DNA of 64,000 bases from Oscillatoriales cyanobacterium (GTDB lineage: Bacteria > Cyanobacteriota > Cyanobacteriia > Cyanobacteriales > Laspinemataceae), in NCBI GenBank assembly GCA_011390955.1, contig JAABRM010000008.1, positions 62,001 through 126,000 of the forward strand, written 5' to 3'. Of the stretch, positions 1 through 31,699 are shown in pieces. Every line of letters starts with the position of its first letter. Positions within the stretch are counted from its first letter, which is position 1. A program made the translations under genes and the position numbers. Under the pieces are notes generated by a model, which did not search any database, was not told the DNA's origin, and saw only the letters and a program-made list of their open reading frames with translations.

Positions 1-702
1 TTTCAAGACATTTTCTGGATGACTGACATGAGCGGATAATCCTTTTAAAAGCGGCTGCGCTTGTTCAAAGGTAAATCCCCCTAAATCGATCGCCGTCCCA
101 ATATTAAAAGGAGTGCGGCTTTTATCTTGGATTAGATCGTTGGGAGTCGCCACCCCAAACAAGGCAAAACTCAGGCGATGATATGCGGGATTCGTGGCTC
201 TTTGATTATAGCAAAAGCGAATCAGGGCAAAAAAGTCATCTACCGGAAAATCTAAGCCCAAAATACTATCAATTTCATCCACAAAGATAAAGATTTTTTC
301 GGCGGTGACATTAGTGAGAATAACCGCTTCGATAAACTGGCTTAATTTTTGTAAAAGTGAGATATTTTCCGTTTCTTGCCACCAAGATTTTAACCGCAAT
401 TTGCCAATTAAATTAAATCCCTGCCATAATTCCGTGACAATGCCTTTATACCACTGTAAAGGAGTAATATTTTCACTACCAATTTTGGTCAGGTCAATGG
501 TAGTACAAGCATAACCAGCTTTTTCTAAGCGCTTTCTCGTATGTACCAGCAAGGAAGATTTGCCCATTTGCCGGGAATTAAACACATAGCAAAACTCGCC
601 TTTTACTAAGGTTTGATATAGTTGCAGATCGGCGAGACGTTCCACATAAGTGGGGGCATCACTGGCTAGACTGCCCCCCACTTGATAAAAGTATTCAGTC
701 AT
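1..702 (-). CDS. AAA-like ATPase domain protein, C-terminus beyond window
   Basis: An open frame runs without a stop from an ATG at 702 to the window edge, giving 234 residues of an N-terminal AAA-like (AAA_35 type) NTPase domain. A Walker A-like [12 protein letters not shown] lies at residues 41-52 and a Walker B-like [12 protein letters not shown] at about 137-148. The protein is nearly identical to the N-terminus of the WD40 protein at 2771-6349, and divergence begins only in the last ~20 residues. It starts 54 bp downstream of the AAA-GGDEF gene at 757-2415, the same order and spacing as the other copy. The missing C-terminus is probably also WD40 repeats, but this is inferred from the paralogue only. 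Confidence 0.88.
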   Translation of the reverse strand, partial: MTEYFYQVGGSLASDAPTYVERLADLQLYQTLVKGEFCYVFNSRQMGKSSLLVHTRKRLEKAGYACTTIDLTKIGSENITPLQWYKGIVTELWQGFNLIGKLRLKSWWQETENISLLQKLSQFIEAVILTNVTAEKIFIFVDEIDSILGLDFPVDDFFALIRFCYNQRATNPAYHRLSFALFGVATPNDLIQDKSRTPFNIGTAIDLGGFTFEQAQPLLKGLSAHVSHPENVLK

Positions 703-756
703 GGTTTTTTTGCGGTTAATTTATGCTGGCCTGAACCATTACAACATCGGGTTAAT

Positions 757-2415
757 TTAATTAAATTTATTAGATTTTCCCAGTCTATTTCCTCCTCTAC
801 TTATACTGGTTTTTAAAGCTTCTTCTGTGGCTTTGAGAAAGCGATCGCAATCCTTGAAATCCTCGATATCCTCATTGTTTACTGTCGGCTTAGTCGTTGC
901 TAACCCCAAGCTAACTGTGACAAAACTTTCCGGGAATAAAACATAATTCGGAATATCGATCTCAATATTTAACGCCCTGACATTCTCTAGGATCCGGTGC
1001 GCTAATTCAACCGCCTCTCTGGAATCTATTTTTGGTAAAATTACCGCAAATCTATCAATATCATACCGAAAAACTCGCATATTTCCACTGGTAATTACCA
1101 GTGAAAAGGCTTGGGCAATTTGCCGTAAGCATCGCTCCGCAAGCTTGACTCCGTAGTAATCTTTATAAGGTTTGAAAAAGTCAACTTCACCGATAATCAG
1201 AGAGAGGGGAGATGCCCCATCAGATAATATATACCACTCTTGGGCTAATTGCCAATCAAAAGATTCTCGATTTCCTAATTGAGTCACTGGATCGAGGGAA
1301 AACAATTGCTTCAACTTTTTATTTTCTCGTTCCAACTCCAGGATCCGCTTGACTGGAAATGGTAAACTTACGTCATTTTCAGCTTCTAACTCAAAGCGCT
1401 GGTAAAAGTAACTGCGATATAACTCATACCTGACCTGAAATTGCTGGTCATCGAGTTTCACTAATCCAAGACTGTCTAGTTTATAAGCGAAAATTGACTG
1501 TAACCCCAGAGGTTTATGGTGCAGAATCAACTTTTTCAAAGCCAGTTTTAATTCTGGGTCATTTTCGATAATGCGGAACAGCCGCTGTAAATGTTCTTGG
1601 TAAATGCCGCGATCGCTTGTGGCAGATTTAAGCAAGTTTTCCAGGGTTTCATCTTCTGATACACTGAGGTGGTAAAACGCTAATCGCACTAACAACGGAT
1701 GTCCCCCCACCATTGCCATTAATTGCTCAGTTTGCTGTCGGTTCCACTCTAAATTATGCAATTGTGCCAACTGTTCCACCTGTTCTACCGTAAACTCTGA
1801 CAAAGTTAAAGGCAAGCCAATATTAAACGGTGATTGGGTAATTTTTAACGGCACATAAATTTCGGTACTATAAACGATAATTAAGCGGAGTTTCCGCCAA
1901 GTTTCTATCTGTTTCCCTTCCTCGTACCACGATCGCAGCAAAGGCAGAAAATCTTCCGTCAGTTGGGGATATTCAAATAGGTGGTTAATTTCATTCAGCA
2001 CCAACACCAAAGGACGGTCAAGCTGTTCCAGGAGATGACAGCGAAAATAAACGCTACAACTTACCTTGCTGCCGATATCTTCATCCCAATATTCATCCAG
2101 TTCAGGTTCCAGATTTAATTGTGTAGTCACTTGCAGACAAAAACTACGCAAAAATCTGTCTAAATTTTTCAGCGAATCCGGATCAAATTGTTTAAAATTA
2201 ATGGTGGCAATTTGATATCGTAGATTTTCCGCATGGTCAACTATTCTTAACATCAAAGAAGATTTACCCATTTCCTTCGGTGCTCTAATCCGAATTACCG
2301 CACCGGGTTTGGTAATTTCTTGGCATCCTAGCTTTTCCAGGGGTGGACGGGGAATATACAGGGATGAATTCAGGGCTACAGGGCCATTAGGATATTCTAC
2401 GAGAGTATTTTTCAT
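757..2415 (-). CDS. AAA-like ATPase fused to a degenerate GGDEF domain (copy A)
   Basis: 552 residues. The N-terminal ~340 residues form an AAA-like domain with a Walker A-type APKEMGKSSLM at residues 45-55 and a hydrophobic Walker B-like strand ending LVLVLNEINHLF near 135-147. A short coiled-coil linker follows (ELERENKKLKQLF), then a GGDEF-type domain beginning LDPVTQLGNRESF. The active-site GGDEF is replaced by DIDRF (in RYDIDRF), so cyclase activity is unlikely. The likely role is NTP-dependent signalling in which the GGDEF fold acts as a structural or binding module. It is a full-length paralogue of 6409-8040, and the next gene downstream starts 54 bp later. No substrate can be assigned. 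Confidence 0.85.
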   Translation of the reverse strand: MKNTLVEYPNGPVALNSSLYIPRPPLEKLGCQEITKPGAVIRIRAPKEMGKSSLMLRIVDHAENLRYQIATINFKQFDPDSLKNLDRFLRSFCLQVTTQLNLEPELDEYWDEDIGSKVSCSVYFRCHLLEQLDRPLVLVLNEINHLFEYPQLTEDFLPLLRSWYEEGKQIETWRKLRLIIVYSTEIYVPLKITQSPFNIGLPLTLSEFTVEQVEQLAQLHNLEWNRQQTEQLMAMVGGHPLLVRLAFYHLSVSEDETLENLLKSATSDRGIYQEHLQRLFRIIENDPELKLALKKLILHHKPLGLQSIFAYKLDSLGLVKLDDQQFQVRYELYRSYFYQRFELEAENDVSLPFPVKRILELERENKKLKQLFSLDPVTQLGNRESFDWQLAQEWYILSDGASPLSLIIGEVDFFKPYKDYYGVKLAERCLRQIAQAFSLVITSGNMRVFRYDIDRFAVILPKIDSREAVELAHRILENVRALNIEIDIPNYVLFPESFVTVSLGLATTKPTVNNEDIEDFKDCDRFLKATEEALKTSISRGGNRLGKSNKFN

Positions 2416-2514
2416 AAGTCAGCGGTAATTTTAAGTCAATTAATTTTATATACTAATTTACACTAATTTGGGTTTAATTTTTAGTCGTAGTCGTAGGGTG
2501 GGCAAAAAATTTTT

Positions 2515-2755
2515 TTCACCGGACAATATATGATATATGATGGTGGGCATTGCCCACCCGACAATATAACTTTTTCTCACCGGACAATATATGATGGTGG
2601 GCATTGCCCACCCGACAATATAACTACTCACTTTTTCTCACCGGACAATATATGATGGTGGGCATTGCCCACCCGACAATATAACTACTCACTTTTTCTC
2701 ACCGGACAATATATGATGGTGGGCATTGCCCACCCTACAATATAACTACAATATA
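2515..2755. repeat. Tandem array of palindromic GGTGGGCATTGCCCACC units
   Basis: Four perfect copies of the palindrome GGTGGGCATTGCCCACC lie at 2542, 2596, 2657 and 2718. They sit inside longer direct repeats of about 54-61 bp that also carry CACCGGACAATATATGAT and a CTACTCACTTTTTCT-like spacer. The array fills the 355-bp gap between the two tandem AAA units. Each palindrome can form a strong hairpin in RNA of either strand. Related copies occur at 8062-8262, 9658-9885 and 31582-31699. Confidence 0.95.
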
Positions 2756-2770
2756 ACTTGATAAAAATAT

Positions 2771-5700
2771 TTAGTCATTTTTTTCCCCTGGTTTTACTCC
2801 ATCACATAAGTGCCGGTATTTTTCCTCTACTTCCGCATTTGTTCGCAGATAATCCCGCACCCAATCACAAGCATAAGCTAATTCATCAACGCGGAGAATT
2901 TTATTGATATCCCACATCATTACAGTGCGATAGTTTCCCCCAGAAATCAAGAATTTACCGTCAGCAGTAAAAGCCACACTCTTTACTGTTCCTTGATGCC
3001 CGGGTAAAGACTTGAGTAATTTTCCCTCTAAATTCCATAATTTCACCTGATTATCAATGCCGCCAGTGGCAATCATTTGACCGTTGGGACTAAAAGCAAC
3101 TCGGATTAACCCATGACTATTTGCCTTAATTATTTTGAGTAATGTTCCGTCTCTTTTCCAAAATTTAATCGTGTCATCTAAGCTAACAGAAACAATCAAA
3201 TTGCCTTGCGGACTAAAAGCAACTCCCCAAATCGATCCCTCGTGACCTGTAAGGGTTTTCACTAGCCTACCATCGGGTTGCCAAAGCTTCACTGTCCGAT
3301 CGTCGCTGGCAGAAGCTAGAAGTTGCCCGTCAGGACTAAATGCTAATTTCCAGATGATCTCTTTATGTGCATTAATACTGTGCAGTAGTTTACCCTCAAA
3401 ATTCCAGATTTTGATCGTTTTGTCATCTCCTGCCGAAGCAATAGTTTTCCCATCGGGAGAGATCGCCACAGCAAAAATAATAGCCGGATGTCCAGTAAAA
3501 GTTCTTAACAGTTCGATCGGCGATTTATGACTGTCACCCAAATCCCAAATTTGCACAATTCCAAACAGGTTTCCTGTCACCATCATCCGACTATCTGGAC
3601 TAAAGCCCACACTGAGAACACCAGATTTTGTTTCTCTGATCGTTGGCCAAAGTGTGCCATCAGAGTGCCATAATTTCATGGTATTATCCCCATTGACAGT
3701 CGCGATCGACTTCCCATCTGGGCTGGTGACAATGTCCAAAGTCGAATCATTATGACCGTAGAGTGGTTTGACAAAATCTTTATTGTGTTGCCAGAGTTTA
3801 ACAGTGCCATAATCACTGGTGGAAGCAACAATCAAACCATTAGAACTCAGTGCCACATCTTGAACAGTGGTATCATGCTGCTTTAAGTCTCTAATAAATG
3901 TGCCATCTAATGTCCAAATTTTGAGATGATTATCTTTGCCACTGGTGGCAATATATTCACCCTGACAATCAACACCTAAAATGGTATTATTGCTGGGCAG
4001 AGTTTTGACTAAAGTGCCGTCTATTTTCCAGAGTTTGATAGTGCGATCGCTACTCACGGAAACCAGTAAATTAGATTGAGAACAAAATGCTAAATCCGTG
4101 ACAGGATTCTGATGTCCTTCTAAGATTTTCAGCAACTTGCCATCAACACTCGCAAGTTTAATTATATTATCAAATCCGGCGGTAGCAACGATCTGACTGT
4201 CTGGACTAAAAGCTACCGCCATCGCTGATTTGTTATGTCCGATCGAGGTTTTCCAGAAAGTACCGTCAAGCTGCCATAATTTAACAGATCCATCGCCACT
4301 AGCAGAAGCAATCAGCTTACCATCAGGGCTGAAAGCAACTCCCCAAACAGGGTTTTTATCTACCTGAATATTTTTTACCAAAGTACCATCAACACGCCAA
4401 ATGTTCAGAGTACCATCGAAACTACCTGAGACGAGCAAGCGACTATCAGGACTGAAAGCAACGCGATATACTGTGCCGGTATGTTTTAAGGTTTTCCATA
4501 ACGTACCATCTCGTTTCCAAATTTTAACAGTTTTATCAGCACTACCAGTGGCAATTAATCGATCGTCAGGACTAATTGCCACTCCCAGCACGACACCTTT
4601 ATGACCGATTAAACGGTTAAATTCATTGTTGCTATAAGCCGATTGTCTCAAGGCAATTTCTACATCTTCAGTTATTTTACTATCTACACCCCCCAAACTT
4701 TCTAATCTTTGTTTGGCTTTAATGGCATCAATCATCGCATCTAACTGATTATTGGAAGAAAACAAGCCTTTAGAAGAAGACGCTAGGGCTTTAATTTCAC
4801 TAATTCTTGCTTCTCGATATTGCCAAAAAGCAAATATACCAATTCCTGAAGCAATGGCGAAAGCCACGCTGACAACTCCTAACATTAACCGTTGTAATTT
4901 CGCGGCTTTTTGTTCTTGTTTGAGTCGGGCTTCTACTTCTTTCGTTCTAGCCGCTTCTAATGCTATTTGTGTTTCTTTTCTATCCAGTTCGGCACTTTGG
5001 CTTAAAAACTGATAATCTAAATCGCTTAAACTTTTGCCCTGAGCCCAAAGTTGAGCATCTTTTAAGGCTTCACCTCGCAAGAGTCGCGATGTATCCGTTT
5101 GCCCCGAAGCTACCCAAGCATCAAAAGTTTGAGAATAAGGTCGCAGGTTAGAGAGTTGTTCCGCCACCCATTCTGGATTAAAAACTTCCTGATAAAGCCA
5201 GTTTTTAACTTTTAAATATCCTTGATTTTTTACCAGTAATCCCGATAAAATTAGTTCCACTTGTTCCCGACTATTATCACTTTTGATCCTCCGATCGCCA
5301 CCCATTAAAACGGGAAGTGAATTAGATTCTAATCTATCTATTTTATCCCCCATTCTTAAGGGGTATTTGGGGTTATTTGCCTCTAATATATGCTGATAAA
5401 TTACCAATAATCTACCGGCTTTTTTTGGGTTGCGTAAAAGGCGATCGCGTATCGTCCTAAAATGTTCTGGTTCATCCTGGGATTCCCAATGGTGAATAAT
5501 GTACTTTTTCACTAAATTTTGCACCCAAATTGGCTCACTCCCAGGATCGATAGTTAAACCTTCTGTCATTTCTGAGGCAGCGATCGCCACTAACTTACAG
5601 AGTTTTTGGGTCAAAAAAGGTTGGCCATTTGTCCAAGCTAAGATTTCTTTTAATACGGTTTCTGGATCGTTCACATACTCTGATAATCCTGGTAAAAGAG

Positions 5701-6349
5701 GCTGCGCTTGTTCTAAGGTAAATCCCCCTAAATCTATAGCGGTGCCAATATTAAATGGAGTCCGGCTTTTATCTTGGATTAGATCGTTGGGAGTGGCTAC
5801 CCCAAATAAGGCAAAACTGAGGCGGTGATATGCGGGGTTAGTGGCTCTTTGATTATAGCAAAAGCGAATCAGGGCAAAAAAGTCATCTACCGGAAAATCT
5901 AAACCCAAAATACTGTCAATTTCATCCACAAAAATAAATATTTTTTCGGCGGTGACATTGGTGAGAATAACCGATTCGATAAACTGGCTTAACTTTTGCA
6001 AATCTGAGATATTTTCCGTTTCTTGCCACCAAGATTTTAACCGCAATTTGCCAATTAAATTAAATCCCTGCCATAACTCCGTGACAATACCTTTATACCA
6101 CTGTAAAGGAGTAATATTTTCACTACCAATTTTGGTCAAGTCAATGGTAGTACAAGCATAGCCAGCTTTTTCTAAGCGCTTTCTCGTATGTACCAGCAAG
6201 GAAGATTTCCCCATTTGTCGGGAATTAAACACATAGCAAAATTCGCCTTTAATTAAGGCTTCATAAAGTTGGCGATCGGCCAAACGTTCCACATAAGTGG
6301 GGGCATTTTTCCCTAGACTGCCCCCCACTTGATAAAAGTATTTAGTCAT
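2771..6349 (-). CDS. AAA-like ATPase / transmembrane / 14-WD40-repeat protein
   Basis: 1192 residues. The N-terminal ~230 residues are an AAA-like domain (Walker A-like [12 protein letters not shown] at 41-52, Walker B-like [11 protein letters not shown] near 139-149), followed by a helical region. The segment around 400-455 contains [20 protein letters not shown], a stretch common in cyanobacterial STAND-like WD40 proteins. Next come a coiled coil ([20 protein letters not shown]) and one membrane helix ([19 protein letters not shown], about 490-510). The remainder holds 14 WD40 repeats from about 580 to 1165, enough for two seven-bladed propellers. The architecture suggests a membrane-anchored NTPase sensor or scaffold. 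It lies 59 bp downstream of the AAA-GGDEF gene at 6409-8040 and is probably co-transcribed with it. Confidence 0.92.
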
Positions 6350-6408
6350 GGTTTTGCTGATTTGAATATTTCAGCCATTACCTCAAACATTAGACTGGGT
6401 TGATTGGA

Positions 6409-8040
6409 TTAAATTAATCGGCTTGAGAGGCCGTTTCCTCCTTGATTTTTACTGGCTTTTAATGCCAATTCTGTTGCCATTACTAACTCTTTACTACTAT
6501 TATTTGCTTGCGGCATAGTTGTGGCAACTCCTAAGCTAACCGTAACAACTTTTTCGGGAAAAAAAATATAATTAGGAATCTTGAGATCGATATTTAAATT
6601 TTGGACATTTGTGATAATTTTACTGCCAATTTTTATGGCTTCTCTGGTATCAATTTTCGGCAAAATCAGAGAAAATTTAGCCTCTCCATACCGAAAAACT
6701 CCCATATCTTCACTGGAGATTACTTCACGAAATACTTGGGCAATTTGCTGCAAGCAACTTTCGCCACTTGGCAATCCGTAGTAATCGCTATAAATTTTGT
6801 AAAAGTCAACTTCCCCGACAATCAAAGATAGAGGGGATTTTGAATCCGATAATAATTGCCACACCGCAGGTAATTCCCGATCGAAGTATTGTCTATTCCC
6901 CACCCGTGTCACGGGATCGAGGTTAAATAATTGTTTCAATTTTTGGTTTTCTGCTTCCAACTCAACGATCCGGCTGACTGGAAATACTAATAACGGATCT
7001 GCTTGAGATTCTAACTTAAATTTTTGGGAAAAATAACGGCGATATAACTCATAGCTGACCGGCAATTGCTTGCAATTTATTTTCAATAATCCGAGACTGT
7101 CTAGTTTATAAGCGCTAATGGATTGTAAGCCCAGACTTTTGTGGTTGTGCAGAAACTCTTTAAAGGCATTTTTTAATTCTGGATCTTGTTCTAGGGTTTG
7201 CCAAATTCGCTGTAAATGTTCTTGGTAAATGCCGCGATCGCTTGTCGAAAATTTAAGCAAGTTTTCCAGGGTTTCATCTTCTGACACACTGAGGTGATAA
7301 AAGGCTAATCTGACTAAAAACGGATGGCCTCCCACCATTGCCATTAATGCCTCAGTTTGGTGCCGGTTCCAATCTAAATTATGTAATTTTGCTAAATCTT
7401 CCACCTGTTCTACCGTAAACTCTGGCAAGGTTAAAGGCAAGCCAATATTAAACGGTGATTGGTTAATTTTTAACGGCACATAAACTTCGGTACTATACAC
7501 GATAATTAACCGGAGTTTTTGCCAAGTGTCTATCTGTTTGCCTTCCTCGTACCACGAACGCAGCAAAGGCAGAAAATCTTCCGTCAGTTCGGGATGTTCA
7601 AACAGTTGGTTAATCTCATTCAGTACCAACACCAAAGGACGGTCAAGCTGTTCCAAGATATGCCAGCGAAAATATAGGCTACAGCTTACCTTGCTGCCGA
7701 TATTTTCATCCCAATATTCATCCAGGTCAGGTTCCAGGTTTAATTGTTTAGTCACTTGCAGACAAAAACTACGCAAAAATCGATCTAAGTTTTTGAGAAA
7801 GCTGCTATCAAATTGTTGAAAATCAATGGCAGCAATGTGGTATCCTAATTTTTCTGCCCGGTTCACAATTCTTAGCATTAGGGAAGATTTGCCCATTTTC
7901 TTGGGCGCCCGGATCCGAATTACCGCACCGGGTTGGCTAATTTCTTGGCATCCTTGCCTTTCCAGGGGTGGACGAGGAATATACAGGGATGAATTCAGTG
8001 CGACTGGGCCATCAGGATATTCGATTAGAGTATTCATCAT
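6409..8040 (-). CDS. AAA-like ATPase fused to a degenerate GGDEF domain (copy B)
   Basis: 543 residues, a paralogue of 757-2415 along the whole length. The AAA-like domain has a Walker A-type APKKMGKSSLM near residue 45. The linker coiled coil is ELEAENQKLKQLF, and the GGDEF-type domain starts LDPVTRVGNRQYF. The GGDEF signature is replaced by GEAKF (in RYGEAKF), a different degeneration from copy A, so diguanylate cyclase activity is unlikely in both. Two adjacent ATGs (8040, 8037) can start it. Copy A begins MKNTL, which fits either choice. It is the first gene of the two-gene unit, with palindrome repeats upstream at 8062-8262. Confidence 0.85.
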   Translation of the reverse strand: MMNTLIEYPDGPVALNSSLYIPRPPLERQGCQEISQPGAVIRIRAPKKMGKSSLMLRIVNRAEKLGYHIAAIDFQQFDSSFLKNLDRFLRSFCLQVTKQLNLEPDLDEYWDENIGSKVSCSLYFRWHILEQLDRPLVLVLNEINQLFEHPELTEDFLPLLRSWYEEGKQIDTWQKLRLIIVYSTEVYVPLKINQSPFNIGLPLTLPEFTVEQVEDLAKLHNLDWNRHQTEALMAMVGGHPFLVRLAFYHLSVSEDETLENLLKFSTSDRGIYQEHLQRIWQTLEQDPELKNAFKEFLHNHKSLGLQSISAYKLDSLGLLKINCKQLPVSYELYRRYFSQKFKLESQADPLLVFPVSRIVELEAENQKLKQLFNLDPVTRVGNRQYFDRELPAVWQLLSDSKSPLSLIVGEVDFYKIYSDYYGLPSGESCLQQIAQVFREVISSEDMGVFRYGEAKFSLILPKIDTREAIKIGSKIITNVQNLNIDLKIPNYIFFPEKVVTVSLGVATTMPQANNSSKELVMATELALKASKNQGGNGLSSRLI

Positions 8041-8061
8041 AAGTCAGCAGGAATTCTAAGT

Positions 8062-8262
8062 TGTAGGGTGGGCAAAAGAGTTTGCCCACCCTAGAATATA
8101 ACATTCGTAGGGTGGGCAAAAACTTTTCCTCACCGCACAATATATGATCGTGGACTTTTGCCCACCCTACAATATAACTCTTGCCCACCGGACAATATAT
8201 GATGGTGGATTTTTGCCCACCCTAGAATATATGATGGTGGGCAATGCCCACCCTACAATTTA
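8062..8262. repeat. Cluster of GTAGGGTGGGCA / TGCCCACCCTAC repeats
   Basis: The gap between the leftward AAA-GGDEF gene and trmFO is made almost entirely of the palindrome family seen at 2515-2755. It contains a GTAGGGTGGGCAAAAGAG and TTTGCCCACCCTAGAAT pair, several ACAATATATGATGG links, and a final GGTGGGCAATGCCCACC at about 8235-8251. Any promoter for trmFO or for the AAA unit must lie within or next to these repeats. Confidence 0.9.
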
Positions 8263-8297
8263 TTTTTCCCTGTACTGAACAAATTAAAGTAAGAACG

Positions 8298-9635
8298 ATG
8301 AATCAACAACCCGTACAAGTGATTGGTGGTGGACTTGCTGGGACTGAAGCCGCGTGGCAAGTAGCCCAAGCGGGAGTGCCTGTGGTTCTCCATGAAATGC
8401 GCCCAGTGCAAATGACCCCCGCCCACCATAGTGAGGAGTTAGCCGAGTTAGTTTGTAGTAATTCTTTTGGGGCAAAAGCAAGCGATCGCGCCGCCGGATT
8501 ACTCCATGAAGAATTGCGACAACTAGGGTCAATTATTATTGGCAAAGCAGACGAACATTCAGTTCCCGCTGGTGGGGCGCTGGCGGTCGATCGCGGAGTA
8601 TTTAGTCGAGAACTAACGGAAACTTTGGCCAATCATCCATTAATTGAACTGCGCCGGGGTGAAGTGCAAAATATTCCCTTAGATGCCATTACCGTACTCA
8701 CCAGCGGGCCCTTAACCAGTGCGGCATTAACGGCGGATTTACAACAGTTTACCGGCATGGAATATATGAGTTTTTTTGATGCCGCCAGCCCCATTGTTTT
8801 GGGGGAATCAATTAACTTTAATATTGCCTTTCGTGCCTCTCGTTATGATAAAGGAGATGCGGACTATATTAACTGTCCCATGAACCGAGAACAATATCTT
8901 AATTTTTGGCAAGAATTATGTGCCGCCGAACAAGCAGAATTAAAAGACTTTGAACGAGAAACCGCTAAATTTTTTGAAGCCTGTTTACCCATTGAAGAGA
9001 TGGCCAAACGGGGGGAAGATACTATGCGGTATGGGCCATTAAAACCCGTGGGACTAAATGACCCGCGCACGGGGGAACGTTATTATGCGGTGGTGCAATT
9101 GCGCCAAGAAGATAAGGCGGGGAATTTATGGAATATGGTCGGATTTCAAACTAATTTGAAATGGGGGGAACAAAAGCGGGTTTTTCAGCTAATTCCCGGC
9201 TTAGAAAATGCGGAATTTATCCGCATGGGGGTGATGCATCGGAATACGTTTATTAATTCTCCAGAATTGCTCGATTCTACGTTACAATTTAGAACCAGAC
9301 CCACGTTATTAGCGGCTGGTCAACTAATTGGAACGGAAGGTTATACCGCAGCAGCGGCTGGGGGTTGGTTAGCGGGAACAAATGCGGCTAGAATTGCTTT
9401 AGGTTTGCCTCCGGTGGCGTTACCGGAAACGACGATGATGGGCGCATTATTTGCGTTTATTAGTTCAGCTTCGCCCAAACATTATCAACCGATGCCGCCG
9501 AATTTTGGCATTATTCCTGATTTACCTCAAAAGGTGAGAAGTAAGCCAGAACGTTATGGCAAATATCGCGATCGCTCTTTAGGGGATTTAGCTAATTGGC
9601 GCCGGAATATTTTCCAGCCATTAGTAGCGGTTTAA
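8298..9635 (+). CDS. trmFO: Methylenetetrahydrofolate--tRNA (uracil-5-)-methyltransferase
   Basis: FAD/folate-dependent enzyme making m5U54 in the T-loop of tRNA. The FAD-binding glycine loop [11 protein letters not shown] is at residues ~9-19. [16 protein letters not shown] (with the conserved Cys) and the late [12 protein letters not shown] segment are typical of TrmFO/Gid. The start was set at ATG 8298 ([12 protein letters not shown]), because the fold begins at once there and the extra 18 upstream residues fall in repeat DNA. This gives 445 residues, the usual family length. It reads convergently toward truB, another tRNA-modification gene, across a 261-bp repeat-filled gap. Confidence 0.95.
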
Positions 9636-9657
9636 TTTATACCATTTCGTTCTCGGT

Positions 9658-9885
9658 CTGTGGTGCGTTACGGCTGGAATCAGGGTTAATTGTTTATTGC
9701 TTAAATCAATTGCCAGCCTAACACACCCTACATTTTGCTATATATGATGGTGGGCAATGCCCACCCTACTTACCTGTGGTGCGTTACGGCTGGAATCAGG
9801 GTTAATTGTTTATTGCTTAAATCAATTGCCAGCCTAACACACCCTACATTTTGCTATATATGATGGTGGGCAATGCCCACCCTAC
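9658..9885. repeat. 112-bp direct repeat, two copies with 116-bp period
   Basis: Two essentially identical copies (9658-9769 and 9774-9885) start CTGTGGTGCGTTACGGCTGG and end with the palindrome GGTGGGCAATGCCCACC plus CTAC. Each carries both a GTGCGTTACGG and an ACACACCCTAC motif, which are frequent in cyanobacterial intergenic repeats. They fill the space between the convergent trmFO and truB stop codons and could act as bidirectional terminators. Confidence 0.97.
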
Positions 9886-9896
9886 CATATATGATG

Positions 9897-10814
9897 TTAG
9901 GCCATTTCCGCGAATACCATTTTGGGGATTAATTGAGGAGGTTCGCTATCAGAAATTACGGCAATGCCTAGAAATTCCCCAGCTTCAGAATGGACTCGAA
10001 AAGCTGAATTTTCTGTCGGTGACTGGTTAGATAAAAACTCGGTAATTTTCTGCCCTTGGCACCAACGACGAGCGATCGCATTTTCCAGAGTAATTTCTGG
10101 TAAATGGATTAACCCGGTTACGGGCGAAATCAAATTAAAACTGCCCGATTGTAACTGAGTTTCTAACTCTTCAAAGGTGATACTTTCCTCAAGAGTAAAG
10201 CCACTACTTTCGGTGCGAGTCAAATGGGCCAGAGTGCCCCCCGTACCGAGACGCTGCCCCAGGTCACGAGCGATCGCCCGAATATAAGTTCCCGGCCCAC
10301 AGGCGATCGCCAGATCCAATTCAGGAAAGTCCCCATCACGCCAATCTAGGAATTTAATCTCGGAAACCTCCACCTCCCGGACAGGCACCTCCACCGCTTC
10401 CCCGCGACGGGCTAAATCATATAATCGTTGACCTTGGACTTGAATCGCACTATAAGCCGGTGGGACTTGGGGAATTTTACCGACAAATTCCCTCAAAACA
10501 GCGATCGCGACCTCCGGCAATCGCTCCACGGACACCGGCTCACAAGTCAACATTTCCCCTTCTAAATCATCGGTCGTCGTGGTTACACCTAAGCGAATCG
10601 TAGCGCGGTAAGCTTTATTTTGGGGCAAATACTGCAACAATCGAGTTGCCCTACCGACCGCCACGGGCAAAACCCCAGTGGCCGCAGGATCCAAAGTGCC
10701 AGCGTGACCCACACGCTTAGTCCGCAACAGTCGTCGGATGCGGGCGACACAATCGTGGGAAGTCATTTGTGCAGGTTTATTCAGACTCAAAAATCCGGAC
10801 ACGGCATTAAACAA
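9897..10814 (-). CDS. truB: tRNA pseudouridine(55) synthase TruB
   Basis: 305 residues. It isomerises U55 to pseudouridine in the T-loop of tRNAs. The start [17 protein letters not shown] and the motif [17 protein letters not shown], which holds the catalytic Asp of GTLDP, are diagnostic. Further conserved blocks are [26 protein letters not shown] and [12 protein letters not shown]. The C-terminal ~80 residues form the PUA-like tail found in bacterial TruB. The length is normal. The enzyme acts on the nucleotide next to the one methylated by the convergent neighbour TrmFO. Confidence 0.97.
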
Positions 10815-11002
10815 TGAGTAGTGATTGATATTGTACTATTAACTACTGTTTTAACCACTGTTACTTAGCAGGAAGATGCTCTCGGCCTGCCATTTACCAT
10901 CAGAAAAATTTTTTACCTATTTTGCCCTGATTCAGCAGAAGCAGTCATCAATTCTAGTGGACAAATCGATGTCAAAAGTGTTAATGATGAGGGAGGACAT
11001 AA

Positions 11003-11023
11003 ATGAGGGGTCTAACCCCTCAT
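11003..11023 (+). promoter_or_regulatory. Perfect 8-bp hairpin over the leader ATG
   Basis: ATGAGGGG and CCCCTCAT pair perfectly around the loop TCTAA. There is no T-run after it, so it does not look like an intrinsic terminator. It would sequester the leader ORF start codon and could affect translation of the following RodZ-like gene. Confidence 0.5.
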
Positions 11024-11080
11024 TCAGGGCTGCGGCTACCAGAAAAATTTTGTTGTACTCAGCCAAGGAGACATCGGTGA
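11003..11080 (+). CDS. Possible 25-codon leader ORF overlapping the RodZ-like gene
   Basis: A small frame starts at ATG 11003, seven bases after GGGAGGA, a good ribosome-binding site. It runs 25 codons (MRGLTPHSGLRLP...) and ends with TGA at 11078-11080, which shares its A with the ATG at 11080 of the next gene (TGATG). Such overlap usually means translational coupling. The start codon itself lies in the hairpin at 11003-11023. No homologue is recognised and the frame may be fortuitous. Confidence 0.35.
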   Translation: MRGLTPHSGLRLPEKFCCTQPRRHR

Positions 11081-11799
11081 TGTTAAGAGCTAATTCAACG
11101 TTTGGTTTTACCCCGGATTTACTAGGAACTTTTGCCAAACCACAGACCGGAAGCAAATCCCCCAAGCCTTTGCCGGGGCAAAATCAGCGCCATGGCAATG
11201 CTCATCAAGCCCACCAACAGGATCATCAAGCAGTCAGTGATGTTGTCGCCAAAAATAGCCACGATCGGGGTGTCAGTAAACCTGTCAGTAAATCTGTCAG
11301 CAAACCTGTCAGTAAACCTGTGACGAATGATTGGCAAGAATTCTTGCTTAAAATTGGTCAGCAATTCCGTGATGTTCGCATTTCCCTGGGAATGTCGCAG
11401 TACCAACTCCATTACCAAACCCTCGTACCGATCGCCCATATTCAAGCCTTGGAAGCCGGACAAATTGAAGCCTTGCCCACGGCAGTCTATGTGCGAGGAT
11501 TTGTGAGAAAAATTGGTACAGCTTTGGGGTTAGATGGCGATCGCCTAGTGGATTCGATGCCTGAAGCCGATCCAGCCAGAGTCATCCTGGGTTCTGGGTG
11601 TTTATTGTCCAAGTCTTCTCCGTCGCCAATTCTCCTAACTCGGATGCATTTATATATGGGCTATTTTGCCCTGTTGCTCATATCCGGTGTTTGGTTACAA
11701 CGGCAAGAAAATGCAGCCCAAACTCAAATAGAAAAGTCAGCTTTCTCTGAAATTCAGGCAAATGCCAGCACTGAAACAAAATCCTCTACTCAACCTTAG
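11080..11799 (+). CDS. RodZ-like helix-turn-helix membrane protein
   Basis: 239 residues from ATG 11080, chosen because GGAG lies nine bases upstream. An in-frame ATG at 10876 would add 68 residues of unlikely composition. After a low-complexity N-terminus and a VSKPVSKSVSKPVSKPV tract comes an HTH_25-type domain (FRDVRISLGMSQYQLHYQT ... IQALEAGQIEALPTAVYVRG) at about 90-150, then a membrane helix (YMGYFALLLISGVWL, about 195-210) and a short Q/T/S-rich tail. RodZ proteins link MreB to the membrane in cell-shape control. The usual large extracytoplasmic domain is absent here. The cyanobacterial family also includes plain HTH membrane proteins of unknown role. Confidence 0.7.
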   Translation: MLRANSTFGFTPDLLGTFAKPQTGSKSPKPLPGQNQRHGNAHQAHQQDHQAVSDVVAKNSHDRGVSKPVSKSVSKPVSKPVTNDWQEFLLKIGQQFRDVRISLGMSQYQLHYQTLVPIAHIQALEAGQIEALPTAVYVRGFVRKIGTALGLDGDRLVDSMPEADPARVILGSGCLLSKSSPSPILLTRMHLYMGYFALLLISGVWLQRQENAAQTQIEKSAFSEIQANASTETKSSTQP

Positions 11800-12124
11800 C
11801 CATCAGCGGGGCGGAAATGATCCGGTAAAACCAGTGCTTGAAATCTCAATGCTCGATCTAAAAAGCGATTGATCTGCTTCCAATTTTGATTAACTGACCC
11901 GTAGGGATTCCACTTGGGTGATTTTTGACCCTGGTTGAATTCCTCGATTTCTTTCTTCTAGGTCTGAACTGCGAATCTGTTTCTTTTCCGGTCTTAAGTA
12001 GCATCTGGAATTACTTGATGCTTTGATTTCGGGTTAAATCAATATCAAACTGAATATAACTGAATTGGCACTGATGGCCGTGAATAATAAACTGCGATCG
12101 AAACTCAATCCCTGAACCAATAAA
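11800..12124. other. Intergenic stretch with no recognised feature
   Basis: This 325-bp gap lies between the RodZ-like gene and the NACHT gene. Apart from a single GCGATCG-type site near 12095, no RNA gene, clear terminator or repeat is visible. It presumably holds the NACHT gene promoter. Confidence 0.6.
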
Positions 12125-14647
12125 ATGCTCCCACAAATTGTTCGCACCCTAATCAATTTGCTTCCGGGCAAGTCTCACCAAAGCTTCTTGCCCAATGGTT
12201 CTTATGCCACTGTTGTTCCGCAAAATTGTCGGGGACTTCGACATCAGCGGTCTGCTGATTTCTTTATTCCCCAAAGACTCACCCCAGACAGCAGTAATTT
12301 ACTTTCCCAGTCAATCATTCAAGCCAAGGAATCTACCGGCAGCTTGGAAATTTGGGATGTCTTGGCGGCAATGGTCACGGATCCATCCTCCAGACGGATT
12401 GCTTTAATTGGCAGTCCGGGGAGCGGAAAAACAAGCTTATTGGAGTATATACAGCGCAGTTATGCGGAAAATCGGCACAAAGAGCACCATTCTGGAGTTC
12501 CTCACCTGATTCCCGTCCGCTTGTGTTTGCCGGATATTCAACGGATGATTGCCCAAAATCCTCCATTGAGTTTGGTGGAACTGATCGCACCAGGAGAAAC
12601 CCCGGAAAAACAACAATGGTCTTGGTTGCTGAATCGGGGAGAGTGTTTGGTGATGTTGGATGGTTTGGATGAAGTGGATAGCAGTAACGATCCAGACGAT
12701 TCGCGGGAGCGATCCGCTTTGGGGAATTGCACCAGTGCGCGGGGTCAGATTAGCCACTGGATCGAGCAGCAGATGCAAGCTTATCCCAATACTCCGTTTA
12801 TTATTACTGCCACTTCCCATGCTTATCACCTCAGACCTTTGGCAGATGTGGGAATGGTTCTGGAGTTGCAGCCGTTTAGCGATCGACAAATTCAAGAATT
12901 TTTGCATCATTGGTATCAGGTCAGCGATCGCTATTCCTCATCGCAGTTTGCCCCAGAAATGAATATTGAGAATAAAAGTAAGCGATTGCTGGGTGAGATT
13001 AAATCGGTGCGATCGGTGGCGAATATGGCCACCAACCCATTATTACTCACGGCGATCGCCCTGGTCTACGATTTGGGTCAAATTCCCCCTCGCCGAGTAG
13101 AACTTTATCAAGCCCTTTGTGATGTCTTGCTGAATCCAATAGGTAAAAAAGAAGAGGGTTTCATGCTTAAGAAAACTTTCTTACAAAAACTGGCTTTGGG
13201 CTTAATGGAGCAAAAAACTAGCCAATTTACTAGCAACTCATTAGGCACGCTGTTAGGAGAAAAAGTAGCCCCATTACCTGAATTAGAAAGTTTCGGGGGT
13301 TTATTAGTTGAAATTCAACCCGGAGTTTATAAATTTTCCCATAAAATTTTTCAAGAATATTTAGCAGCAGTCGAAATCAAGGATTCTCAGCAAGAAGAAT
13401 TACTGGTGAAAAATATTCAACATCTCTGGTGGCATGAAACAATCAAATTTTATACTGCCATGAGTGAAAATTATCTCACGAATGTGATCGAAGCGGCGCT
13501 CTTGGAACCAAACACCTTAAACTTAGCTTATGATTGCTTGCAGGATTGCTGGCAGGATAATTGTAATGTGCCGTTGCCCCTGCAAAAAATCTTTAACCAG
13601 AAATTAGATAGCGCCCTGGAATCAACCACCCCCAGCATTTTTAAGTCAGCGGCCAAAGTGCGGTTAAAACAACGCTGCCAAAACTTGTTGCAAAGTCAAA
13701 AGTCTGTAGCGATCGATCCTGATTATATTACTAATGCCGAATATCAATTATTTATTGACGATCGCCGCAAATTGGGTCAATCTCGCCAACCGGATCATTG
13801 GTCAAGCAGACAATTTCCCCCTGGAGAGTCTCAGGAGGCGATCGCCGGAGTCCGGGGCAGTGATGCGGAGGAATTTTGTGAATGGTTAACCCAACAATAT
13901 GCGGGGTATGGGGTTAAATTTCGCTTACCTACTTTCGCCGAAGTGCAAAGTCATCCAGCCCATGAAGAACATCTAGGGGCGTGGTGTTATGCAGAAAAAG
14001 ATAAGGCGATCGCGGGATTTTCTGACCAATTCTGGCAACAATGGCAACAGCAAATTGCGATCGTCCTGGATCGTGACCTGGAACATTTGCGTCGTCAACA
14101 AAAAGCCTTAAAGCTTGACTTAACTCGCGCCTTAACTCGTGAGATAGCCTTAAAACTAGCTGAAGCGGAAAAACAGCAATTGCTTGAACAAATTTCTCAA
14201 CGATTACAGCGGGGTAAATCCCACGAACTCGTCAAAAATTTAGCTCATATTCACGAGTTAGTATTTACCTTAAGTAATGTCGATAAGTTTGAACAAATTC
14301 GGGAATTTGCCCTAAAAATTTCTAAAATTCGCCAGCTTTTTGCTTTGCGCCAACTGCTGCGATATAATCCCGGTGAATTTGACATAATTCGGCAGGATTT
14401 TTTGCTGATTTATATCTGTTTTAATTGCTTAAATAATTATCAAATCACGATGACTGAAAATTCAGCGATGTCTTGGTCGTACTCTCAGAATGTTGCCAAA
14501 GAACTGCTGAAACCTAGTCACTACTATGAGCAAAAGAAAAATGAAGCCCTCAATCTTTATGCTTTTTTTGTCCTCATCCATCAGCGTCATTTTCACCAAT
14601 TGCCCGCTTTTGAAGGAATTAGAATTGTTAAAGAATCCGTCGCATAA
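12125..14647 (+). CDS. NACHT-family NTPase with degenerate FGE-like module
   Basis: 840 residues. The NACHT domain has Walker A GSPGSGKTS at 96-104 and Walker B CLVMLDGLDEVD at 174-185, followed by the helical ARC-like region (MATNPLLLTAIALVYD, KFSHKIFQEYLAAVEI). Residues ~535-640 (DYITNAEYQLFIDDRRKLGQ, GSDAEEFCEWLTQQYAGYG, VKFRLPTFAEVQSHP) look like a shortened formylglycine-generating/C-type-lectin fold domain. The remaining ~200 residues are helical and coiled-coil rich. Bacterial NACHT proteins include anti-phage NLR-like sensors, and FGE-like folds serve in some as variable ligand-binding domains. No effector domain or defence partner gene is seen, so a defence role is only a possibility. 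Confidence 0.88.
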   Translation: MLPQIVRTLINLLPGKSHQSFLPNGSYATVVPQNCRGLRHQRSADFFIPQRLTPDSSNLLSQSIIQAKESTGSLEIWDVLAAMVTDPSSRRIALIGSPGSGKTSLLEYIQRSYAENRHKEHHSGVPHLIPVRLCLPDIQRMIAQNPPLSLVELIAPGETPEKQQWSWLLNRGECLVMLDGLDEVDSSNDPDDSRERSALGNCTSARGQISHWIEQQMQAYPNTPFIITATSHAYHLRPLADVGMVLELQPFSDRQIQEFLHHWYQVSDRYSSSQFAPEMNIENKSKRLLGEIKSVRSVANMATNPLLLTAIALVYDLGQIPPRRVELYQALCDVLLNPIGKKEEGFMLKKTFLQKLALGLMEQKTSQFTSNSLGTLLGEKVAPLPELESFGGLLVEIQPGVYKFSHKIFQEYLAAVEIKDSQQEELLVKNIQHLWWHETIKFYTAMSENYLTNVIEAALLEPNTLNLAYDCLQDCWQDNCNVPLPLQKIFNQKLDSALESTTPSIFKSAAKVRLKQRCQNLLQSQKSVAIDPDYITNAEYQLFIDDRRKLGQSRQPDHWSSRQFPPGESQEAIAGVRGSDAEEFCEWLTQQYAGYGVKFRLPTFAEVQSHPAHEEHLGAWCYAEKDKAIAGFSDQFWQQWQQQIAIVLDRDLEHLRRQQKALKLDLTRALTREIALKLAEAEKQQLLEQISQRLQRGKSHELVKNLAHIHELVFTLSNVDKFEQIREFALKISKIRQLFALRQLLRYNPGEFDIIRQDFLLIYICFNCLNNYQITMTENSAMSWSYSQNVAKELLKPSHYYEQKKNEALNLYAFFVLIHQRHFHQLPAFEGIRIVKESVA

Positions 14648-31478: not shown

Positions 31479-31699
31479 GGCGCAATGTTTGCGCCCGCAA
31501 TGTTTGCGCCCGCAATGTTTGCGCCCGCAATGTTTGCGCCCGCAATGCCCATCCTACGCAGCTTAATTCCTCAGCTTTTTTGGTGGGCATTGCCCACCCT
31601 ACTTTTCCGGTGGGCAATGCCCACCCTACGCAGCTTTTCTCAGCTTTTTTGGTGGGCATTGCCCACCCTACGCAGCTTTTTTGGTGGGCATTGCCCACC
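31479..31699. repeat. 15-bp GCGCCCGCAATGTTT tandem repeat plus four palindromes
   Basis: GCGCCCGCAATGTTT is repeated at a 15-base period from 31491 to 31550 after a GTAGGGGCGCAATG opening. Four copies of the GGTGGGCA(T/A)TGCCCACC palindrome follow at about 31582, 31609, 31651 and 31683, with GCAGCTTTTTT spacers. The block separates menF from menD and may attenuate read-through into menD. Confidence 0.95.

Follow-up and report, generated by a model that had tools for sequence, protein, structure and literature searches.

A tandem array of paired AAA_35 NTPase genes in an Oscillatoriales cyanobacterium, probably part of a split STAND-like sensor-effector module

STAND NTPases (the 2qen clan, NACHT, AP-ATPases and the Apaf-1/NLR proteins) have in common with AAA_35 proteins a P-loop NTPase with a GxP motif, and in Apaf-1 the parts follow the order NTPase, helical region, double propeller. 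Related STAND and conflict systems have been described (PMC7159879, PMC8195603, PMC10907252, PMC4986451, PMC5587647), among them NTP-dependent conflict systems of multicellular bacteria, in which vWA-MoxR pairs occur with VMAP, iSTAND2 or TERNS3, or STANDs with effector-associated domains (EADs) (Kaur et al. 2020, PMC7159879; Kaur et al. 2021, PMC8195603). In this work we analyse a 64,000-nucleotide stretch (the window) of an Oscillatoriales cyanobacterium, positions 62001-126000 of contig JAABRM010000008.1 (C57:62001-126000) in a 7.12-Mb draft assembly of 113 contigs (GCA_011390955.1). Its left end carries genes of two types, named here A (AAA_35-GGDEF) and B (AAA_35, a transmembrane (TM) helix and 14 WD40 blades). 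With the adjoining sequence past the left window edge (L021, C57:48001-68000), the full array reads A1 B1 | A2 B2 B3 B4, and the portion of it in the window probably belongs to an expanded array of a split STAND-like module of two genes, in which B is the sensor and A the output partner. The genes of the array are as follows.

A1, 6409..8040, minus strand: AAA_35 (residues 8-339) and a degenerate GGDEF domain (373-536), 543 aa; putative effector-side gene
GGDEF domain of A1, 6433..6924, minus strand: RYGEAKF in place of RYGGEEF, Glu in place of the metal Asp
B1, 2771..6349, minus strand: AAA_35, TM and 14-blade WD40, 1192 aa; putative sensor-side gene
TM helix of B1 (residues 487-511), 4817..4891, minus strand: rich in lysine and arginine (K/R) on the AAA side
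14 WD40 blades of B1, 2909..4606, minus strand: two seven-bladed propellers
A2, 757..2415, minus strand: AAA_35 and a degenerate GGDEF domain (RYDIDRF), 552 aa
B2, 1..702, minus strand: first 234 aa in the window; full gene L021:11091-14702, 1203 aa, with a WD40 C-terminus
B3, L021:7586-11098: AAA_35-TM-WD40, 1170 aa; overlaps the preceding gene by 8 bp
B4, L021:4006-7593: AAA_35-TM-WD40, 1195 aa; overlaps the preceding gene by 8 bp

The A1-B1 and A2-B2 gaps are 59 and 54 bp, and an intergenic stretch of 355 bp lies between B1 and A2; the array is flanked by trmFO and by a PAS histidine kinase that follows B4. On re-reading the sequence, the open reading frames (ORFs), spacings and domains that an initial annotation had given for A1, B1, A2 and B2 were all recovered, as was its membrane-anchored double propeller (one TM, then 14 blades), and left of position 1 the gene beginning at 702 also proved to end in WD40 repeats. 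Its tandem duplication of a two-gene unit stands as a repeated A-B order but not as two equal units, the array being A B A B B B. It called the AAA domains of the second genes nearly identical; among the B genes these parts are 91-99% identical as proteins, and A1 and A2 are 82-87% identical over AAA_35 residues 1-240 and 57% over GGDEF.

B1 has the Apaf-1 order of parts. Unlike in STAND receptors, sensor and effector are here on separate, neighbouring genes that each encode an NTPase; A-GGDEF proteins have a Walker B Asp-to-Asn change, and B has a TM helix. In most pairs the outputs are on A and the sensors on B, and we therefore call the pair STAND-like and not a canonical STAND receptor. 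On A-type proteins AAA_35 is joined to GGDEF, adenylate/guanylate cyclase, TIR, CHAT, protein kinase or sigma-70-region-4-like domains, and on B-type proteins to 14 WD40 blades, CHASE2, three GAF domains or tetratricopeptide repeats; exceptions seen among B were one protein with NACHT and one with CHAT. The A and B NTPases are homologous across 338 columns, and no screened ORF carries both NTPase types. TIR-AAA_35 genes adjoin AAA_35 partners at seven loci (L129, L130, L133, L135, L136, L142 and L149), and in 6 of the 7 the partner lacks a TM and has three GAF domains, which suggests that certain effectors and sensors are preferentially combined.

NTP-dependent conflict systems resemble AAA_35 pairs in their enrichment in multicellular cyanobacteria and in combinatorial effectors (cyclase, GGDEF, TIR), sometimes with inactive cyclases (PMC7159879, PMC8195603). 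AAA_35 was not found among those systems by text searches, and no vWA-MoxR pair was seen beside the window array, though no search aimed at one was made. No published description of AAA_35 pairs, nor any paper naming PF14516, was found, which is not proof, as most subscription journals lie outside the literature searched.

With the PF14516 profile the genome has 16 AAA_35 domains, eight A-type (~390-490 bits) and eight B-type (~100-115 bits). A-B neighbours also occur on C5, on C78 and at another place on C57; solitary A genes are found on C1 and C28 and a solitary B on C108, and a matching A homologue is present in the same-genus genome of the search set. The survey of pairing took in 36 genomes from across the order and counted a B within 4 kb among the listed strongest matches above score thresholds. 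A B lies directly downstream on the same strand of 65 of 148 A genes and nearby in any other arrangement for 19; at the family level, 22 A genes have a B nearby, which in 21 cases is downstream and on the same strand. The GGDEF/WD40 form of the pair, A then B, was found in many named cyanobacteria. The pair is thus not confined to the window but is met again in filamentous cyanobacteria generally, and its recurrence in kept order and strand across many families answers the co-occurrence question raised by the initial annotation. In 75 pairs, A and B NTPase distances correlate with a Mantel r of 0.758, compared with a maximum of 0.255 under global shuffling and 0.725 when partners were reshuffled within genomes (p 0.0002). 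As reshuffling inside genomes never reached the observed value, the A-B co-evolution signal exceeds shared genome ancestry. A defined two-component system, as first proposed, thus holds in the sense of a recurrent, co-evolving pair, but the pairing is far broader than GGDEF plus WD40.

The two genes could instead be unrelated neighbours, co-duplicated by chance between intergenic repeats and having no joint function. Palindromic repeats resembling repetitive extragenic palindromic (REP) elements flank both units, the homology between units reaches into the repeat upstream of A, which is a plausible duplication route, and many A genes have no B. The two repeats concerned are given below.

61-bp-period array of palindromic GTGGGCATTGCCCACC units, 2533..2750, no strand assigned: intergenic between B1 and A2, upstream of A2
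Related repeat upstream of A1, 8122..8263, no strand assigned: within a stretch homologous to the region upstream of A2

Order and strand are nevertheless kept across many families, partners co-evolve beyond genome membership, and AAA-like gene pairs occur on plasmids, so that chance association is most improbable. That the A-B pair is a general module with a joint function of A and B is well supported. Relatives of AAA_35 occur on 39 plasmid records, and none was found in phage records of the phage collection searched. On a 39-kb mobilizable plasmid, two adjacent genes 9 bp apart are annotated only as 'AAA-like domain-containing protein', and the first holds an A1-like match.

The NTPase motifs differ systematically between partners. 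Walker A GK[ST] is present in 85 of 91 A-GGDEF proteins and 98 of 99 B proteins, and the GxP motif is nearly universal, as GHP in 90/91 A-GGDEF and GQP in 97/99 B. Walker B reads NE in 86 of the 91 A-GGDEF proteins, DE in 96 of the 99 B proteins, and DE in 28 of 47 other A proteins. In P-loop NTPases, a Walker B Asp-to-Asn change usually impairs hydrolysis. A-GGDEF proteins would therefore bind nucleotide and hydrolyse it poorly, leaving B as the active member of the pair. In an AlphaFold2 model of A1 (pLDDT 88.8), residues 5-339 align to the archaeal Walker ATPase 2qen, which we take to be a member of the STAND class (Z 20.7, 311 residues, root-mean-square deviation 4.4), and the GGDEF part of the model matches the WspR GGDEF fold (Z 28.8). 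The predicted model of B1 (pLDDT 83.6) has 14 blades, and full-length Apaf-1 ranks second among its Foldseek matches. Whole-chain TM-scores are low, so the likeness of A1 and B1 to known structures is one of parts and order and not of the complete arrangement. A sequence search of the PDB with either NTPase gave no relative beyond P-loop matches.

A strong hydrophobic helix lies between NTPase and propellers in 58 of 64 WD40-bearing B proteins. Its NTPase side (N-flank) has a mean of 5.0 K/R and its propeller side (C-flank) a mean of 2.4. CHASE2-bearing B proteins have helices at the same place, and GAF-bearing ones have none. CHASE2 sensors are extracytoplasmic. From the charge bias and these two variants, the WD40 part of B is predicted to lie outside the cytoplasm, which if true would be an unusual location for such propellers.

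B may alternatively be a cytosolic, NLR- or Apaf-1-like defence receptor, its NTPase and propellers both cytoplasmic and its TM a mere tether, with the pair triggering abortive infection or cell death. The Apaf-1 match of B1 agrees with this, as do the TIR, CHAT and cyclase domains on sister A proteins; birth-and-death turnover of the locus and a constant, converted NTPase beside variable sensors also resemble immune receptor families. The positive-inside bias at the TM is strong, however, and the TM is kept in nearly all WD40-bearing B proteins; PADLOC gave no match for A1 and matched B1 over part of the propeller region only, the phage collection gave no match, and CHASE2 and GAF sensors also indicate general signalling. 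We consider a defence receptor of this kind rather unlikely.

The GGDEF state of A bears on the nature of the output. A1 carries RYGEAKF and EVDFYK and A2 carries RYDIDRF and EVDFFK, so that neither keeps GG[DE]EF and the metal-binding Asp. A dead cyclase, as the initial annotation had it, describes both window copies but not the family, in which many relatives are intact (36 of 91 unique A-GGDEF proteins). On a tree of these 91 proteins, GGDEF state requires 12 changes, at least 7 of them on well-supported branches; state counts alone do not separate loss from gain, and the multiple changes on the tree suggest that catalysis was probably lost repeatedly while pairing was kept. Intactness has no apparent association with the presence of B (27 degenerate and 12 intact with B, 24 and 16 without). 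The fold of A1 is that of WspR-type diguanylate cyclases; the differences are the loss of the active-site motif in A1 and A2 and the joining of GGDEF to AAA_35 and not to a receiver domain. The lone A on C1 (L025:7044-8747) has an intact GGDEF, and its sister-species counterpart (L247:7133-8014) is broken by stop codons.

An environmental second-messenger pair unconnected with immunity, in which B senses a cue in the periplasm or cytosol and A makes c-di-GMP or cAMP, would agree with the intact GGDEF of many B-paired A proteins, with cyclase-type A proteins and with the CHASE2 and GAF sensors on B. It is harder to reconcile with the degeneration of more than half of the sampled A-GGDEF proteins, both window copies included, after repeated changes on the tree, with the TIR and CHAT outputs that share the AAA_35 chassis, or with fast turnover and array expansion, which are atypical of housekeeping sensing. 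This explanation is possible, and we give it limited credence.

In the mechanism we prefer, B has its AAA_35 NTPase in the cytoplasm, followed by a single TM helix and by two seven-bladed propellers that are predicted to be extracytoplasmic and act as the sensor. Ligand on the propellers would alter the B NTPase, which would pair with the A NTPase; B would contribute the intact Walker B, and A-GGDEF would bind nucleotide but probably hydrolyse it poorly. Assembly of A with B would then switch the output domain of A. For A1 and A2 the output may be a non-catalytic GGDEF that binds nucleotide or a partner, and for relatives it may be c-di-GMP synthesis in many and cyclase, TIR or CHAT activity in others. 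Where tandem B genes share an A, several sensors would be able to act on the same output, and gene conversion would keep the B NTPase modules interchangeable as the propellers diverge.

The tandem B genes bear the marks of such conversion. B2 and B3 have 784 identical bases in common in the NTPase part, and 52 consecutive synonymous sites match (reached in 0 of 5000 permutations), yet in their WD40 parts synonymous sites have reached saturation. In all six pairs of array B genes, the AAA part has a lower synonymous divergence (dS) than the WD40 part (Fisher p 3e-7 to 3e-42). Collapse of the assembly or constraint on the sequence might also lower dS, and a 784-bp exact repeat is hard for short reads in a draft of 113 contigs. 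The dispersed paralogue B5, however, has an AAA dS from ~0.4 to saturation and no AAA/WD40 contrast, so codon constraint does not explain the low AAA dS of the array. The contrast also recurs in other genomes' arrays (L137, L154 and part of L155, though not L222), including L137 on a 7.47-Mb contig (AAA dS 0.37-0.81, WD40 dS 0.57 to saturation), and collapse or constraint is very unlikely. The nucleotide pattern indicates that the NTPase part of the tandem B genes is homogenised by gene conversion and the propellers are divergent. The halves of the B genes also differ in nearest relative, the propellers of B3 being nearest those of B1 and the propellers of B2 nearest those of B4. At the site between trmFO and the histidine kinase, both sister species have B in several fragments and no A, and this reduction to a decayed B points to rapid turnover of the family. 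In a complete genome (L155:986-17896), an A gene precedes four B genes, of which one is short (516 aa).

STAND antigen sensors diversified by diversity-generating retroelements likewise combine a STAND-like NTPase with a variable sensor, often in duplicated targets, but there a retroelement changes a C-type lectin, and here WD40 propellers accompany a conversion-homogenised NTPase (PMC10907252). Fungal HNWD/HET-E NLRs also join an NTPase to WD40 repeats in a family of shuffled modules; their near-identical repeats are not seen here, where mean blade identity within a protein is 0.33-0.36 (PMC4986451).

Several points weigh against the proposed sensor-output module. No B lies within 4 kb of 64 of the 148 A genes surveyed, so some A proteins may act alone or in trans. 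The GGDEF of the window pair is, by its motifs, catalytically dead. The placement of the propellers outside the cytoplasm rests on charge bias and analogy, and physical contact between A and B is something we infer. Variable WD40 positions are not concentrated at top-face hot spots compared with other exposed positions (p 0.31). Canonical top-face hot spots are reportedly R1-2, R1 and D-1 in WDSP work. With these hot spots no more variable than the rest, diversifying selection for target binding gains no support, and nonsynonymous divergence (dN) in the WD40 part is below dS and gives no support for positive selection.

Taken more broadly, the pairs may, tentatively, form a widespread and distinct cyanobacterial two-protein system. 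In it, TM-bearing B would sense extracytoplasmic ligands by WD40 or CHASE2, or cytosolic ones by GAF, NTPase-NTPase contact with a Walker-B-altered A would switch interchangeable outputs (c-di-GMP, cAMP/cGMP, NAD cleavage, proteolysis), and tandem B arrays would evolve like receptor repertoires. A large unnamed cyanobacterial family ('AAA-like domain-containing protein') would be open to testing as a sensor-effector system whose partners divide their tasks clearly and follow a conserved rule of pairing, and it would offer a bacterial case of constant-NTPase/variable-sensor array evolution. Hundreds of genes could be annotated by the A/B rule, which would also help in the search for the ligand.

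REP-like GTGGGCATTGCCCACC palindromes are clustered in intergenic arrays at 2533-2750, 8122-8263, 9658-9885 and 31582-31699, with 22 matches in the window against 0 expected, both strands being counted for each palindromic site. The array at 9658-9885, between trmFO-like and truB-like genes, is a perfect 116-bp tandem duplication holding the same palindrome; Rfam gave no match in window positions 1-12000. Four kb from the gene array, an 840-aa protein (12125-14647) has, as judged from its sequence, an N-terminal P-loop NTPase resembling NACHT, and at L022:12266-13822 two similar short neighbouring ORFs that start with MYLLDTNHCS resemble VapC-type PIN toxins.

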